From NCBI GenBank assembly GCA_023135785.1, contig JAGLSL010000012.1, forward strand, positions 1 to 40,781: a DNA stretch of 40,781 nt, read 5' to 3'. Below the pieces are notes generated by a model that made no database searches, was not told the DNA's origin, and saw only the letters and a list, made by a program, of their open reading frames with translations. Positions 1 to 14,120 of the stretch are shown here, in pieces. The stretch comes from a bacterium (GTDB lineage: Bacteria; CAIJMQ01). Numbering within the stretch: the first letter of the stretch is position 1; each line of letters opens with the position of its first letter. Position numbers and translations under genes: made by a program.

Positions 1-51
1 CATACAGAAAATAAAGCAGCGGGATAACAAAAAGAGTGAGCATCAAGGCGC
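1..51. repeat. 51-nt exact copy of part of the second RND gene
   Basis: Bases 1-51 are identical to 11087-11137, near the 3' end of the second RND pump gene, and the match stops at base 52. On the minus strand it would encode the same transmembrane segment. If base 1 is a contig end, this is what a shared assembly-graph k-mer looks like. A real partial duplication is the alternative. Confidence 0.9.
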
Positions 52-97
52 CTATCTGATTTATAAGACGGGTCAATTACCTTCTACAAAAAAGGAA

Positions 98-157
98 GTA
101 TAACAATAGAGCTGATGCACAGCATTTTCACAGGTGCCTTCAGCCATTTTGTTGGGC
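98..157 (-). other. attC-like recombination site (cassette B 3' end)
   Basis: Read on the minus strand, the site opens with GCCCAAC (151-157), a perfect RYYYAAC R'' box, and closes with GTTATAC (98-104), a near GTTRRRY R' box. The outer arms pair as AACAA/TTGTT. An inner arm pairs as GCTGA/TCAGC at equal spacing on both sides, the R/L box arrangement of integron attC sites. The stop codon of the upstream gene lies just inside it, as is usual for cassettes. This was judged by eye, without a covariance model. Confidence 0.6.
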
Positions 158-1027
158 ATCTTTTATTCTGTATGCTCGCCACTTTGAGCTATCGTGACAG
201 CAAATTGTCCAAATCTCTTTTATTCGTTTAATGAATCCCTTAGGGAGAGGCACACGTGCTTTTGGATTGTGGATAATCATTGATTCCTCAAACAAATTGA
301 AGGCCAAAGAAAAAAATGAACAGTCGGAATACAGCACCGCTGAAATCAAACTATTGTCCTCAGATAGAAAAAACTTTGTGTCGATATCCGGTCCATTGAC
401 TTTCGGAATGCTCCCACAAGATTCGACACCTTCACCGACAACTCCTTTACCTTGGTCAACTATTACATAAGGGTTCCCTAAACCATGCGTTGCTCTCATG
501 ATTGTCGGCGGCCACAAGGTAGCCCTCGGACTGAGCTTCGATGAGCTAACAGCGATAATACAGACGTCGTTCGCTGACACTATTCCTTTTTCGAGATACT
601 GCGTATACTTTTGCTTTTTATCCTCGAGTGCACTGCGGATACGTAAAACAATTTGTGCTACAGGAACTTTCCGAGCTATGGAAGCCCCACAAACTATCGG
701 CGGAACCGAATTAGGCTTATGCTCATCTCCATGTCCGGGACAAATGGCTTCAATGAAAACCCTCTTCCTGTCTTTTTCGACGACAAAATCTGGTCCATAA
801 TCGGTGCTCTTTGGCTCATACCCTTCAAACTTCAACATCTTTGCCATCATCATTTCCCATAATCGTGCGTTTGTGTCTCGGTCGAGTTCCTGCTCGAAAT
901 GGGAATCTTCTAATCCATCAATAGATGAAAAAAGCTCAACAATTCTTTTACGGAGCGGAAAGAACTCTGAATCTTTAGGTAACCCTTTGAGGAAAATGCT
1001 ATTCGGATATTTTTCAAAGATATTCAT
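140..1027 (-). CDS. Hypothetical cassette-borne protein, possible degenerate PD-(D/E)xK nuclease fold
   Basis: I do not recognise a family for this 295-residue soluble protein. An acidic helix, a GPD motif (Asp about residue 80) and, 13 residues on, a strand ending FIEA (Glu about 93) recall a PD-(D/E)xK nuclease core. The usual lysine after the glutamate is absent (E-A-I), so nuclease activity is only a guess. I chose ATG 1027 over an upstream GTG at 1057 because the GTG lies inside the attC-like site, while the ATG sits about 12 nt after its GTTGGGC boundary, the normal spacing for a cassette gene. The last residues (AQQNG) are encoded by the R'' box of the next site. Carriage on a mobile cassette is the main clue to its role. 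Confidence 0.7.
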   Translation of the reverse strand: MNIFEKYPNSIFLKGLPKDSEFFPLRKRIVELFSSIDGLEDSHFEQELDRDTNARLWEMMMAKMLKFEGYEPKSTDYGPDFVVEKDRKRVFIEAICPGHGDEHKPNSVPPIVCGASIARKVPVAQIVLRIRSALEDKKQKYTQYLEKGIVSANDVCIIAVSSSKLSPRATLWPPTIMRATHGLGNPYVIVDQGKGVVGEGVESCGSIPKVNGPDIDTKFFLSEDNSLISAVLYSDCSFFSLAFNLFEESMIIHNPKARVPLPKGFIKRIKEIWTICCHDSSKWRAYRIKDAQQNG

Positions 1028-1038
1028 TATCCCATATT

Positions 1039-1110
1039 GCCCAACATCAAAACTCACCTATTGCTATGGAATGCAACTAAATAGCGGTCAGGTGAAGCGC
1101 ATTGTTATGA
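1039..1110 (-). other. attC-like recombination site between cassettes A and B
   Basis: On the minus strand the site runs from TCATAAC (1104-1110) to GTTGGGC (1039-1045), a perfect GTTRRRY. The outer arms pair AACA/TGTT. The inner arms pair TCACCT/AGGTGA with equal spacing. A further GCTAT/ATAGC stem encloses the terminal loop. This layout (R box, spacer, L box, variable stem) is that of integron attC sites. The TAA stop of the upstream gene overlaps the R'' box. Length is 72 nt, within the known attC range. Confidence 0.7.
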
Positions 1111-1587
1111 GTTTTTTTTAGTCTCAATCTTTTCTTTGCATTCTAGGACATCTTTATTTAGTGTTTCTTGTAAATAATCTGAAAGATTGTTTATAAATTT
1201 TTTTGCATTTTGAAAATCATAAATTGCTGATCTATATTTCTTTAATGATTTATAAGCGCAACCTCTTAGGTAATAGGCATCTGCATTTTCTGACTCTGAA
1301 GAAATTATATTTGTTAATTGTTCGATTTCGCTGTTAGCTTCAGCTTTTTGAAGATTTTCTTTGATTTTTTTTAATGAGCATATGTTTCCTGCGACGACTA
1401 GACCACTTGAAATAAAAACAAATAGAAAAAGATGAAGGACATATTCAATATTGTTTATATTTAAGAATAACAAAATAATTATTATGACATAGGAAGCAAG
1501 TAAACAGTAATTCAAGGAATTTTCTGCTCCCTCTACTACTTTATTGGTCGGTATTGTAGGTTGTTTTAATTTTATATCTTTTGTCAT
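1105..1587 (-). CDS. Small membrane protein with one TPR-like repeat (cassette A)
   Basis: The 160-residue protein has a short polar N-terminus, two hydrophobic spans (about residues 28-44 and 48-68) separated by an Asn-rich turn, and a cytoplasmic-type tail. The tail contains a TPR-like unit (ADAYYLRGCAYKSLKKYRSAIYDF, about 102-125, in shortened form) and a lysine-rich end. No enzymatic motif is visible. It is the first gene after a strong promoter and a GTTAAGC cassette boundary, and its stop codon falls in the next attC-like site. It is therefore probably the promoter-proximal cassette. The function is unknown; the TPR unit suggests protein binding at the membrane. Confidence 0.75.
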   Translation of the reverse strand: MTKDIKLKQPTIPTNKVVEGAENSLNYCLLASYVIIIILLFLNINNIEYVLHLFLFVFISSGLVVAGNICSLKKIKENLQKAEANSEIEQLTNIISSESENADAYYLRGCAYKSLKKYRSAIYDFQNAKKFINNLSDYLQETLNKDVLECKEKIETKKNS

Positions 1588-1606
1588 TATTAGTTCATTT
1601 TTTTAT

Positions 1607-1646
1607 GCTTAACATGTATTATACGGACTAAATAATAATCTGACAA
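1607..1646 (-). promoter_or_regulatory. Sigma70-type promoter followed by a GTTRRRY cassette boundary
   Basis: On the minus strand, TTGTCA (1641-1646), a 17-nt spacer and TATAAT (1618-1623) form a strong promoter. Five nucleotides further on is GTTAAGC (1607-1613), a perfect GTTRRRY motif, and the first cassette gene starts 19 nt later. A promoter directly before the first cassette resembles the Pc/attI arrangement, but the adjacent upstream gene is a patatin-like lipoprotein, not an integrase. Confidence 0.7.
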
Positions 1647-1748: not shown

Positions 1749-2954
1749 TTACTCCATCCCAGGAGGCGATTTTCTCCAAGGATATCCTTGCAAAGTCTCT
1801 TCAAAACCCAAATCAAAAAGCGCCTGCATTTCAACAGGGTCAAAAAGCTCTTTTGCTTTAGATACATGGGTTACCGGGATAGAGGCAAGATTAAAATCAC
1901 CGTTCCTTGCTCTTGTAAAAACATATAAGTAAATGATGTCGCCTACGCTTTGGGTATTGAGCATCGTTTCAATGGTGCGTTCCGCTATAGCAGGTATTTT
2001 ATCCGGAATCTCTTCCCAAACAGCATCTGTATAACCATTTCTAATAACATAAATTTTGTACTGTATCTTATAAATATCTACTCCTTTTTCTTCGGCGGCT
2101 TTCTCAATACCCTGGATAACATCATAAAGAAAAAACACCTGCTTTATTACCCCGCCGTCAACATGCATCTCATCATACTTTTCGTCATTAGCCTCCGCCT
2201 CTAAATAAACTGGAGGGAGTGCAATTGGAATGGACGCTGACGCTAATATGACTTTGCGAAACAACTTTAAAGCATTACCACCGCCTATGGACGCAATTTT
2301 GCCCATATCCCAAATAACAAGCTGTTGCGCATCCAAATTAGTAGTTCCCACATAAAGCCTGCGGCCTTTGTTATATTCAATAGTTATCTCTTTTAGTAAT
2401 TCTGTATCAAAGTATCGTTCAATAAGATATTCCAAAGGCTTGGTGCTGGCAAAGGCATTACGAGATGGATGTATCCGTAAAATATCCTTTGTTGAATACT
2501 TAGTATATAATTCCTTTAATGTATCGTCATGCCCGCTTCCTAAAAAGGCAAGCGGCGCAATTATCGCTCCGGTACTTATTCCAGTAACAACCTTAAAAAC
2601 CGGCCGTGTCCCGGACTGTGACCATCCGTTAAGTAATCCTGCGCCATAAGCACCGTTGGCAGCTCCACCCGAAAGAGCAAGTAGGTAATAAGTCTGTTTA
2701 GTTTTAAAATTAAAGAAAGAAGGTTCCCTTTTTTCTTCTTGTTCCAACAACTTAACAAAATCTTTCTTAAAAAAATCATTTGGGCTTCCACTGAACGCCC
2801 TGATGTCTTGCATGCCGAAAACTCGGACATCATTTAATAAATTTTCTGGGACAGCGTGACGCACTCTTGCGCAGCCGGAAATAAACAAGGGAATAAACAA
2901 AATGATTATACTAAACAAACATGATCGCTTTTTTATCTTTAGGCACATATACAT
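1749..2954 (-). CDS. Patatin-like phospholipase lipoprotein
   Basis: This 401-residue protein begins with a lipoprotein signal peptide (lipobox FISGC, Cys about 28), so it is probably anchored in the outer membrane. The patatin core is complete: the glycine-rich oxyanion segment GGAANGAYGAG (about 96-106), the nucleophile elbow GISTG (Ser about 127) and the DGG motif holding the catalytic Asp. Members of the family hydrolyse acyl chains from phospholipids or other esters with a Ser-Asp dyad. A Shine-Dalgarno GGAGAG precedes the ATG. The next three genes on the same strand include a PlsC-like acyltransferase and a glycosyltransferase, which suggests a lipid or envelope remodelling context. The substrate is not predictable. 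Confidence 0.88.
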   Translation of the reverse strand: MYMCLKIKKRSCLFSIIILFIPLFISGCARVRHAVPENLLNDVRVFGMQDIRAFSGSPNDFFKKDFVKLLEQEEKREPSFFNFKTKQTYYLLALSGGAANGAYGAGLLNGWSQSGTRPVFKVVTGISTGAIIAPLAFLGSGHDDTLKELYTKYSTKDILRIHPSRNAFASTKPLEYLIERYFDTELLKEITIEYNKGRRLYVGTTNLDAQQLVIWDMGKIASIGGGNALKLFRKVILASASIPIALPPVYLEAEANDEKYDEMHVDGGVIKQVFFLYDVIQGIEKAAEEKGVDIYKIQYKIYVIRNGYTDAVWEEIPDKIPAIAERTIETMLNTQSVGDIIYLYVFTRARNGDFNLASIPVTHVSKAKELFDPVEMQALFDLGFEETLQGYPWRKSPPGME

Positions 2955-11057: not shown

Positions 11058-14000
11058 TTAACCTGACTTGCGTTGTCTTCTTTTTTCATACAGAAAATAA
11101 AGCAGCGGGATAACAAAAAGAGTGAGCATCAAGGCGCTGAATGCTCCCGATATAACTGTAACACCCATAGGCGATTTAAAAGCAGTAGCTTTGCCAACAC
11201 CAAAAGCAAGGGGGATCATTGCGGTAATCGTAGTAAAGGTCGTCATAAGACACGGCCTTAATCTTACGGAACTTGCTTCCACAATGGCATCAAGCGGTTT
11301 CTTACCCTGCTCAATAAGCGTCTTTGCGAAATTAATAATAAGGATGCCATTGTTCACACCTATACCGGTTAGAATCATAACTCCAAGAAGACTAAACATA
11401 TTAATGGTCTTGCCAAAAATAAAAAGACCGAAAAGTATTCCAATCATTGCCAATGGTAAAGCTGAGATTATAATGAACGGTTCGAACCAACTTTCGAATT
11501 GGGCTGCCATTACCAAATAAACGAGAATAATGGCGATAAGTATGGCAGTTCCTATATCGCGAAAAGCCTCCTGCATCATCTTTATATTTCCACCCGTATT
11601 TAAATTGACCTCACGAGGAACATTTATTTCTGTCAGTTTTCTCATAAATTCATTTGCTACAGTTCCCACAGGTTTATTGGTATTAGCGGTGAGAGTAATG
11701 CTTGGTTGACGATTATATCTTTGTCTTTGAGTAGGACCTGATGTTTCCTGTATGTCGGAAATTTGTTTTAATAAAAATATGTCGTTCATTCTGTTGGATA
11801 AAGGAATATTCTCTAAAACCTGTCTTTGTTTTTTCAATTTTTCGGGTATAGTGACGCGTATATCATATTCGTTTTCACCCTCGCGAAACGTTGTAGGCAC
11901 AATACCTTCCAAAGCCGCGCGCACATTTAACGCCACAGAATTAACATCCATATCAACATCTGCTAATTTTGCGCGATTGATTGTAAAATTTATTTCGGGT
12001 TTTCCGGGATGATAAGAATAATCCGCATCCAAAATACCGGGCGTATTTTGTAAAACTTTTAGAATGTCCTTTGCCGCGCTTGTAACAATTTCATGGTCTG
12101 GTCCGGTAACATAATATGTAATTGGCGCGCCGCCGCCGCCAACACTTGAGCTTATTTCTTGAACATTAATAGTGGCTCCCGGCAAAGACGCAAGAAAATG
12201 TTTTGTATCCTTTAACAATTCTACCGCCGAGAGGCTTCTATCATCTTTCCAATTGATTACTATTTGCGCATATTCGGGTCCCTGAGAGCCGACACTAACC
12301 TCTCCGCCTGAAACTGCGCCGATAGTGGTAAAAGTGCTGTCCAGTTCCGGAATTGTTCTCAACTTTTCTTAAATTTGCTTTACCATAGATTGTGTTTTTT
12401 CTAAATTTGTCCCGGCCGGCATTCTTATCGTTATGGAAGAAACGCCTTGGTCCGTTTGGGTGGCAAATTCCGACCCGATCATAGGAAGAAGCGCAATACT
12501 TGCAATTAGGAGTCCAATAACGATTCCAAAAACTAATTTAGGCCGTTTTAATACAATGGGCAAAAAATCTTTATATTTGGCTTTTAAAAGTAAAAACCCC
12601 TTTTCCCACTGTCTTGATAACCAAGTTTCTCTGGTAACATGTAAAAATTTGCTTGATAACATGGGAATTAATGTAAATCCGACACAAAAAGCAATGATTG
12701 TGGCAAAAATTTGCACCAGACCGAATTCTTTGAAGAACTGCCCCATCAGTCCCGCCATAAACACAATAGGCAAAAAGACCACAATATTGGTGCAAATAGA
12801 AGCAATCACAGCAGGGGCAACCTCCATAGTAGCTTCTTCAGCCGCCTGTTTTAAATTTTTACCCAATTCTTTCGTATGCCTGTGAATATTTTCCAGAATA
12901 ACTATGGAACTATCGATAAGAACTCCTACGCATAAAGCTAAACTTGTAAGTGTAAGAATATTAAAACTAAAACCCGTCATATACATAAAAAACATAGTCC
13001 CTATAAGCGAGACCGGTATTGTTATGCTGACAATCAATGTGCTTCCTACTCCGTGCAAGAATAAAAACAGAACAATACCCGTAATAATAACCCCTAAAAA
13101 CAAATTGCTCCTGACATCCGCAACAGCGTTTCTTATAAATAAAGAATCGTCAACGACCACTTTTAATTCATAACCCTCCGGCAAAACTTCATTAAGTCGA
13201 GCAATTTCCGACCTTACATTATCCACAACTTCAATTGTATTTGAATCCGGTTGTTTCTGGATAGTCAATGAAACTGCGTCTTTTCCGTCTATCCTTGCAG
13301 TATCTCTGACTTCAGCATAGGTATCTTTTACTTCGGCTAAACTTGAAAGATTCACTTTTCTCGTCTGTCTGGTTCTCTGGTCCATCAAAGGGATTTCAAG
13401 AGAACTTATCTGCGATATATCAGTAAATTCGGCATCTGTTCTGCCGGATATTTCTAAATCCCCGCTGGAAAAATGACCTGCGGGCAAATTTACGTTTTCA
13501 GATTTCAACCTATTAGATATATCAAGTAAAGTTATCCCATAAAATTTGAGTTTATCCGGCACCGCTTCCACTCTTATTTCCCGCCTTAATCCGCCTACGA
13601 TGTCAATATTGCCGACCCCCTTGACCGTTTGAAGAATTGGTTTTATGTTATCTTTTGCCTGCTGATAAACACTTTGCAAATCAGGGCCTGAAAAAGCTAT
13701 ATAAAGAATAGGGCTTGCGTTAATGTCGAGTTTAAGAATTTCGGGTTCTTTCACATCGTCAGGTAATTGCTCTCTTATGGAAGAAACTTTTTCTCTGACA
13801 TCCGAAGCAGCCACATCTGCAGAAACATCCATAGTAAATTCACAGATAATAATTGAAACTCCTTCCGACGATACGGATTGAATATTTTTCAAATTATTTG
13901 TTGTGCTAATTGCATCCTCGAGAGGTTTTGATATCAACGTTTCTACCTGGTCGGGACCTGCGCCCGGATACAAAGTTTTAACCGTAACGTAAGGAAGGTC

Positions 14001-14120
14001 GACATTGGGCATAAGCGTAACATTTAACTTGAATGCCGAATATACGCCTATAACCGCCAATGCCAAGAAAAAGACGGAAATAAAAACCGGTTTATTTATA
14101 GCTATTCTGGGTAAATTCAT
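11058..14120 (-). pseudogene. RND efflux transporter (pump 2) interrupted by one in-frame stop
   Basis: Residues before and after a single TAA (12369-12371) together make about 1020 residues in one frame, a normal HAE-type RND permease. The junction reads SMVKQI, stop, EKLRTIPELDSTF with no frameshift. The first part holds the N-terminal span, the first porter loop and TM2-6 with GVLIDSSIVILENI (Asp kept, next residue Ser). The second part holds the rest of the second porter loop and the C-terminal membrane block (GVNNGILIINF). A TTG six codons after the stop could restart translation, but half a pump should not work. The stop could also be a sequencing error or be read through. A Shine-Dalgarno GAGG precedes the ATG at 14120. 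The gene follows its own adaptor gene. Confidence 0.9.

Follow-up and report, generated by a model that had tools for sequence, protein, structure and literature searches.

The array lies at one end of the window, by which we mean the whole stretch of 40,781 nucleotides that was analysed and which is an entire contig (C12) of the draft genome G000, a MAG of 1.34 Mb that is 96% complete and split over 104 contigs. It occupies positions 1-1646 of the minus strand, where a promoter is followed by GTTAAGC, an ORF of 160 aa, a first attC site, an ORF of 305 aa and a second attC site (Table 1). The preliminary description had correctly placed both attC-like sites, one at the 3' end of each minus-strand ORF (1587-1105 and 1057-140), as well as the strong promoter ahead of GTTAAGC. 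The predicted start of this promoter is close to the crossover point, and TATAATAC at the promoter end of the array is kept in the congeneric genome G001; promoter-like matches in the region show no excess over shuffled sequence (8 versus a mean of 8.1).

Table 1. Coordinates of the features of the array within the window
Feature	Position	Strand	Basis
Promoter TTGTCA-17-TATAAT, Pc-like, at the array head	1618..1646	-	11 of 12 consensus positions; best of the region
GTTAAGC, left crossover between G1613 and T1612	1607..1613	-	G000/G001 similarity up to G, then background
Gene cassette 1, 568 b, TTAAGC to G of attC1 R'	1045..1612	-	Limits set by left crossover and attC1
Cassette 1 gene, 160 aa	1105..1587	-	ORF; two predicted membrane segments and one TPR-like repeat
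attC1, 72 b	1039..1110	-	R1 22.5 bits; R2 35.6 bits
Gene cassette 2, 941 b, TTGGGC to G of attC2 R'	104..1044	-	Sequence
Cassette 2 gene, 305 aa from GTG (295 aa from ATG 1027)	140..1057	-	PD-T7-1/PD-T7-5-like
attC2, 60 b, R'' GCCCAAC, R' GTTATAC, right crossover G104/T103	98..157	-	R2 13.3 bits; border common to G001
Chromosomal right flank shared with G001	1..103	-	91% identity outwards from crossover

In cassette 2 the R'' is the perfect reverse complement of the first bases (GTTGGGC), which is what an intact cassette should show, and the R'' of attC1 is off-consensus, with no match to the first bases of cassette 1. Both genes had been thought to stop inside R'', which holds for gene 1 (TAA, 1107-1105), whereas the TGA of gene 2 (142-140) lies nine bases past R'' (157-151), within the L'' box. 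The right flank ends in a remnant of the 3' end of an RND transporter gene, 51 b of which recur exactly at 11087-11137, and it is probably because of this exact repeat that the assembly broke at the contig end. Rather than the distal piece of a longer array, as first suggested, the two cassettes probably form a complete array, both borders of which are visible.

Two other genes of the window may be noted. The RND transporter gene (11058-14120, minus strand) is split into ORFs 12369-14120 and 11058-12362; both align at 96-97% identity with portions of a single 1030-aa ORF of G001, and the split reflects either a frameshift or stop or an assembly error. A patatin-like lipoprotein gene (1749-2954, minus strand) adjoins the array and is present in one of the six class mates (G003, 79% identity).

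Proteins encoded by the cassettes

The gene of cassette 1 has a GC content of 27%. Of its description as a TM-TPR protein, the two membrane segments stand as predictions read from the sequence, and the TPR part is marginal, the match to Pfam TPR_1 (E 1e-5) falling below the curated cut-off.

The 305-aa protein of cassette 2 matches the PADLOC profiles PD-T7-1 (E 1e-15) and PD-T7-5 (E 4e-14) over about 220 residues, profiles for which no curated cut-off was available, and is 22-31% identical to six plasmid-borne proteins. These plasmid relatives are encoded beside a type I restriction system in Photobacterium and beside toxin-antitoxin genes elsewhere. The motif GPDF...FIEAICP is kept among relatives as GPD...(W/F)xEAxCP, with GPD and E invariant in 7 relatives and the lysine of ExK absent, in agreement with the early suggestion of a degenerate nuclease. 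PD-T7-1 and PD-T7-5 have been reported as PD-(D/E)xK-containing anti-phage proteins (PMC10952713), and the cassette 2 protein is, by sequence, probably an anti-phage relative of the two. Its more likely start is ATG 1027, since GTG 1057 falls inside attC1. No match of the protein was found in phages or viral contigs, nor any relevant match of the array DNA on plasmids. PDB matches were weak only and were rejected as relatives, a single-sequence structure model was too poor for use (pLDDT 37), and the alignment of homologues was too divergent to serve as a genome-scan query.

Identification of the attC sites

Searches of Rfam gave no match to an attC family, and 29 attC sites were therefore collected, from annotated class 1 and class 3 plasmid integrons and from intI-bearing chromosomes, for a covariance model of our own (R1). 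MAFFT put L' in the wrong place when applied to full-length attCs, and N was therefore substituted for the variable loop in the alignment; a plain distance-and-pairing scan was too noisy and was rejected. The 29 known sites share the geometry 7-5-3-EHB-6-EHB / 6-3-6-7 (EHB, extrahelical base), in which the first arm consists of R'' (7 bases), a spacer of 5, a run of 3, an extrahelical base, a run of 6 and a further extrahelical base, and the second arm of runs of 6 and 3, a spacer of 6 and R' (7 bases).

attC1 matches this geometry base for base, with R'' TCATAAC, L'' GCT(T)CACCTG(A)CC (against ACT-CACCTA), L' AATAGGTGAGT and R' GTTGGGC. It thus combines the features by which an attC is recognized, namely R'' and R', paired L'' and L', two extrahelical bases and the conserved spacing, and, read in gene orientation, the extrahelical bases are on the L'' side, where plasmid attCs also have them. 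R1 finds it with an E of 0.006 when the window is searched; R2, a class-level covariance model built without the window sites, gives E 1.1e-6 for the window and 3.7e-5 for the whole genome. Of the two, R1 provides the greater independence, because the training set of R2 contains the attC of contig C22, which is 76% identical to attC1 over 68 b; at E<=0.01, 60 of 79 varied genomes had no R1 match. attC1 is a genuine attC site.

For attC2 the R boxes are perfect and the L stem GCTGA/TCAGC is present, but the R2 match has an E of 0.5 and is not significant alone. It is nevertheless the second-best match in 81.6 kb of strand and lies where such a site would be expected; for the 1 kb downstream on the correct strand alone, E would be about 0.006. 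Its R' border, moreover, coincides exactly with that of a strong attC (48.8 bits) at this locus of G001, and we accept attC2 as an attC for this reason; it presumably functions as one. Folding energy was uninformative as evidence, neither site folding significantly better than shuffles (z 0.20 and -1.37).

attC sites elsewhere in the genome and class

The genome contains at least 8 further attCs at about three other loci, several of which score higher under R1 than attC1 (C22, 41 bits; C91, 37; C56, 35; C34, 32; and others). The preliminary description had made its reading depend on hits to an attC covariance model and on similar sites elsewhere in the genome; as our own models find attC1 and stronger attCs exist at other loci, that reading stands. 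Among the class mates, attCs are present in G001, G004 and G005 and none were found in G002, G003 and G006. In an alignment of 21 attCs from G000 and the three attC-bearing class mates (none from the window) with 4 reference sites, the pairs covary strongly, with 78 double-change cells versus 34.5 in shuffles and 14-22 with the partner slid.

An exact overlap of 150 bases joins contigs C32 and C91 into locus B, which is flanked, likewise in G001, by genes for an adenylate-cyclase-like protein and a histidine kinase; in G003, where the locus is empty, these two genes are directly adjacent. The cassettes of locus B include YafQ, Phd/YefM-ParE and HEPN proteins, and toxin-antitoxin cassettes are thus present in the arrays other than that of the window. 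C22 and C56 appear, from their orientation, to be two ends of one locus D. Loci besides the array described here (locus A) also differ in cassette filling between G000 and G001, and cassette GC ranges from 25% to 53% against about 38% for the genome.

Loci B and D have a common leader with a promoter and an attI-like end, TATCTGCTATCAT-N8-TAAGAGT[A/G]ACTGTTCAATG...GTT, which has four occurrences across the seven genomes, all of them in G000 and G001. Its positions are L064 2223-2175, L068 5719-5671, and L083 6215-6263 and 10130-10178, one of them inside an array, without intI. At locus A the GTT point beside the promoter is seen and the attI-like leader of the other loci is absent; the locus-A leader was considered as a copy of the B/D leader and rejected, the sequences not being the same.

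RAYT-like (REP-associated tyrosine transposase) genes were seen at L068 3706-3020 and L067 7025-7690, the former breaking an attC in array B. Array B also contains, ahead of a peptidase U32 gene, some 335 b repeated from its own right flank (L068, about 2225-1880), which looks as though a cassette had taken up flanking chromosomal DNA.

Cassette replacement between sister species

G001 (JAHJCU01, deposited as Candidatus Omnitrophota isolate Modern_marine.mb.319; MAG 92% complete) carries the homologous array inside a 593-kb contig, in the order RND gene, leader, three cassettes, attC, RND remnant and valS. The three cassettes encode proteins of 91 aa, of 230 aa (weakly C39-like) and of 463 aa (beta-lactamase fold), and no cassette gene matches either of the two in G000. 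At the right border, identity is 91% over the 103 bases outside the crossover and 49% inside it (null 44-51%). At the left border, the last ~30 bases up to TATAATAC[A/G]TG are kept and the next 85 are at background level; this border is less sharp, because the flank outside the crossover is just 60% identical, mostly in those last ~30 bases. In this alignment, chromosomal similarity ends on both sides at G^TT, which is where an integron integrase cuts. The comparison shows a replacement of cassette content at fixed borders.

In G002 an RND gene lies directly before valS, with no cassettes, and in a more distant relative (L143) the region before valS is also without attC. A clean pre-insertion allele of locus A was not found, the G002 sequence being too different for base-by-base joining of the flanks.

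Search for an integrase

The intI search covered the seven class genomes (G000 and six class mates) and about 140 further genomes taken as a sample. TIGR02249 gave nothing above cut-off in the window or the genome of G000 and no match at E<=1e-50 in the six class mates, and no intI lies between the RND gene and valS in G001. PF00589 identified exactly two tyrosine recombinases each in G000, G001 and G005, of XerC/D size. No intI was found beside the array, where a complete integron would have one; rather, with two attCs 0.9 kb apart and no intI nearby, the array falls under the definition of a CALIN (two or more attCs separated by under 4 kb), an assignment that partly rests on attC2. It is because no intI was found, and only XerC/D-like recombinases in G000 and G001, that we assign the array to this kind, as had been proposed for a genome of a candidate phylum.

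Among other genomes, attCs, several at scattered loci, were seen without an intI match in G007, G033, G061, G064 and G071. A cyanobacterial plasmid of Kovacikia minuta (L048, 3702-3787) has an attC-bearing integron whose integrase is 63% identical to that of L005.

Origin of the array

We consider it very probable that positions 1-1646 of the minus strand hold a small, complete cassette array without an integrase gene, the cassettes of which were placed by an integron integrase. A chromosomal promoter would read into two cassettes, each of one gene and an attC, which an integron integrase would have joined at the GTT beside the promoter (G1613^T1612), either by attC x attC recombination or by recombination with a non-attC site. 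The same GTT point would have received different cassettes in the sister species. As neither assembled genome encodes an integrase, the enzyme may have acted in trans, from a plasmid, a phage or a neighbouring cell, or have been lost after loading. The promoter would then express the membrane/TPR protein and the PD-T7-1/5-like, probably anti-phage, protein. We infer the source and timing of the integrase, the expression of the cassettes and the defence function. Off-target insertion, loss of intI and rearrangement have been proposed as origins of CALINs (PMC8618304), whose cassettes can be moved by exogenous IntI (PMC9668308). An extension of this reading, in which the genus keeps several fixed landing sites, some with a promoter and an attI-like leader, as a platform without its own integrase that is refilled by outside integrases, appears unlikely.

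The array could instead be the dead remnant of an ancestral integron that lost its intI, leaving the cassettes as ordinary genes. The off-consensus R'' of attC1, the weak attC2 and the REP-associated transposase interrupting an attC in locus B fit such decay, and intI loss is one proposed CALIN origin (PMC8618304). On the other hand, borders are kept while all cassettes differ, and the proteins neighbouring the arrays are 92-97% identical between the two species, which argues that cassette exchange continued until late. We therefore regard a dead remnant as a serious but somewhat doubtful alternative.

Since both MAGs are incomplete (96% and 92%), an intI could lie in an unassembled part of the genome and the array belong to a complete integron; the genome is in 104 contigs, this contig starts at an exact repeat, and draft genomes inflate CALIN counts (PMC9024848). 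However, both borders are visible, the G001 array runs from the RND gene to valS inside a 593-kb contig without intI, and intI was found in none of the seven class genomes, which makes this improbable. That the resident XerC/XerD, the sole tyrosine recombinases in G000 and G001, move the cassettes is very improbable: attC hairpins with extrahelical bases are IntI substrates, a gap in the profile near positions 183-232 suggests that the resident enzymes lack the IntI-specific stretch, and no dif-like core was seen by eye. Chance inverted repeats or terminators are scarcely credible as an explanation of both hairpins, for although folding is no better than in shuffles and the attC2 score is low, attC1 reaches E 1.1e-6 with a model built without it, and covariation, the exact shared border and further attCs in the genome accompany it.

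Comparison with known systems

PD-T7-1 and PD-T7-5 are reportedly anti-phage proteins of E. coli (Vassallo et al. 2022). The cassette 2 protein resembles them in the profile match over about 220 residues and in the PD-(D/E)xK-type motif GPD...ExA, but is without the usual ExK lysine, is shorter (295-305 aa versus profiles of 346-452 positions) and is encoded in an integron cassette; an uncultured lineage is thereby seen to carry a probable anti-phage gene of PD-T7-1/5 type as an integron cassette. With mobile class 1 and class 3 and sedentary chromosomal integrons the arrays of this genome share attC anatomy, toxin-antitoxin and defence cassettes and a promoter reading into the array, whereas here there is no intI and several small arrays take the place of one platform. 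The cassettes at attG sites (Loot et al. 2024), as described in the citing text (PMC12901181), are similar in lying at a plain chromosomal GTT, at several loci and outside an integron; locus A is distinct in having a promoter at the site and in being filled in two species, the likeness to the sites so described being one of GTT crossover geometry only.

The array is real and belongs to a known kind, the CALIN. The list of integron-bearing phyla in PMC8618304 does not include the host lineage, which is no proof of a first record. CALINs are common and, because they are usually known from one genome, relics and live sites are hard to tell apart; here the question becomes testable, because two congeneric genomes show the same borders, different cassettes and no resident integrase. 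What makes the case interesting is the comparison of two species, the recurrence of attI-like leaders where no intI was found, and the defence-like cassette. The array agrees with the CALINs of Cury et al. (IntegronFinder, PMC9024848) in its two attCs less than 4 kb apart, single orientation, one gene per cassette and lack of intI nearby or in the genome, but differs in that no intI was found in the host lineage, the head promoter is conserved and cassette replacement at the same borders is shown comparatively.
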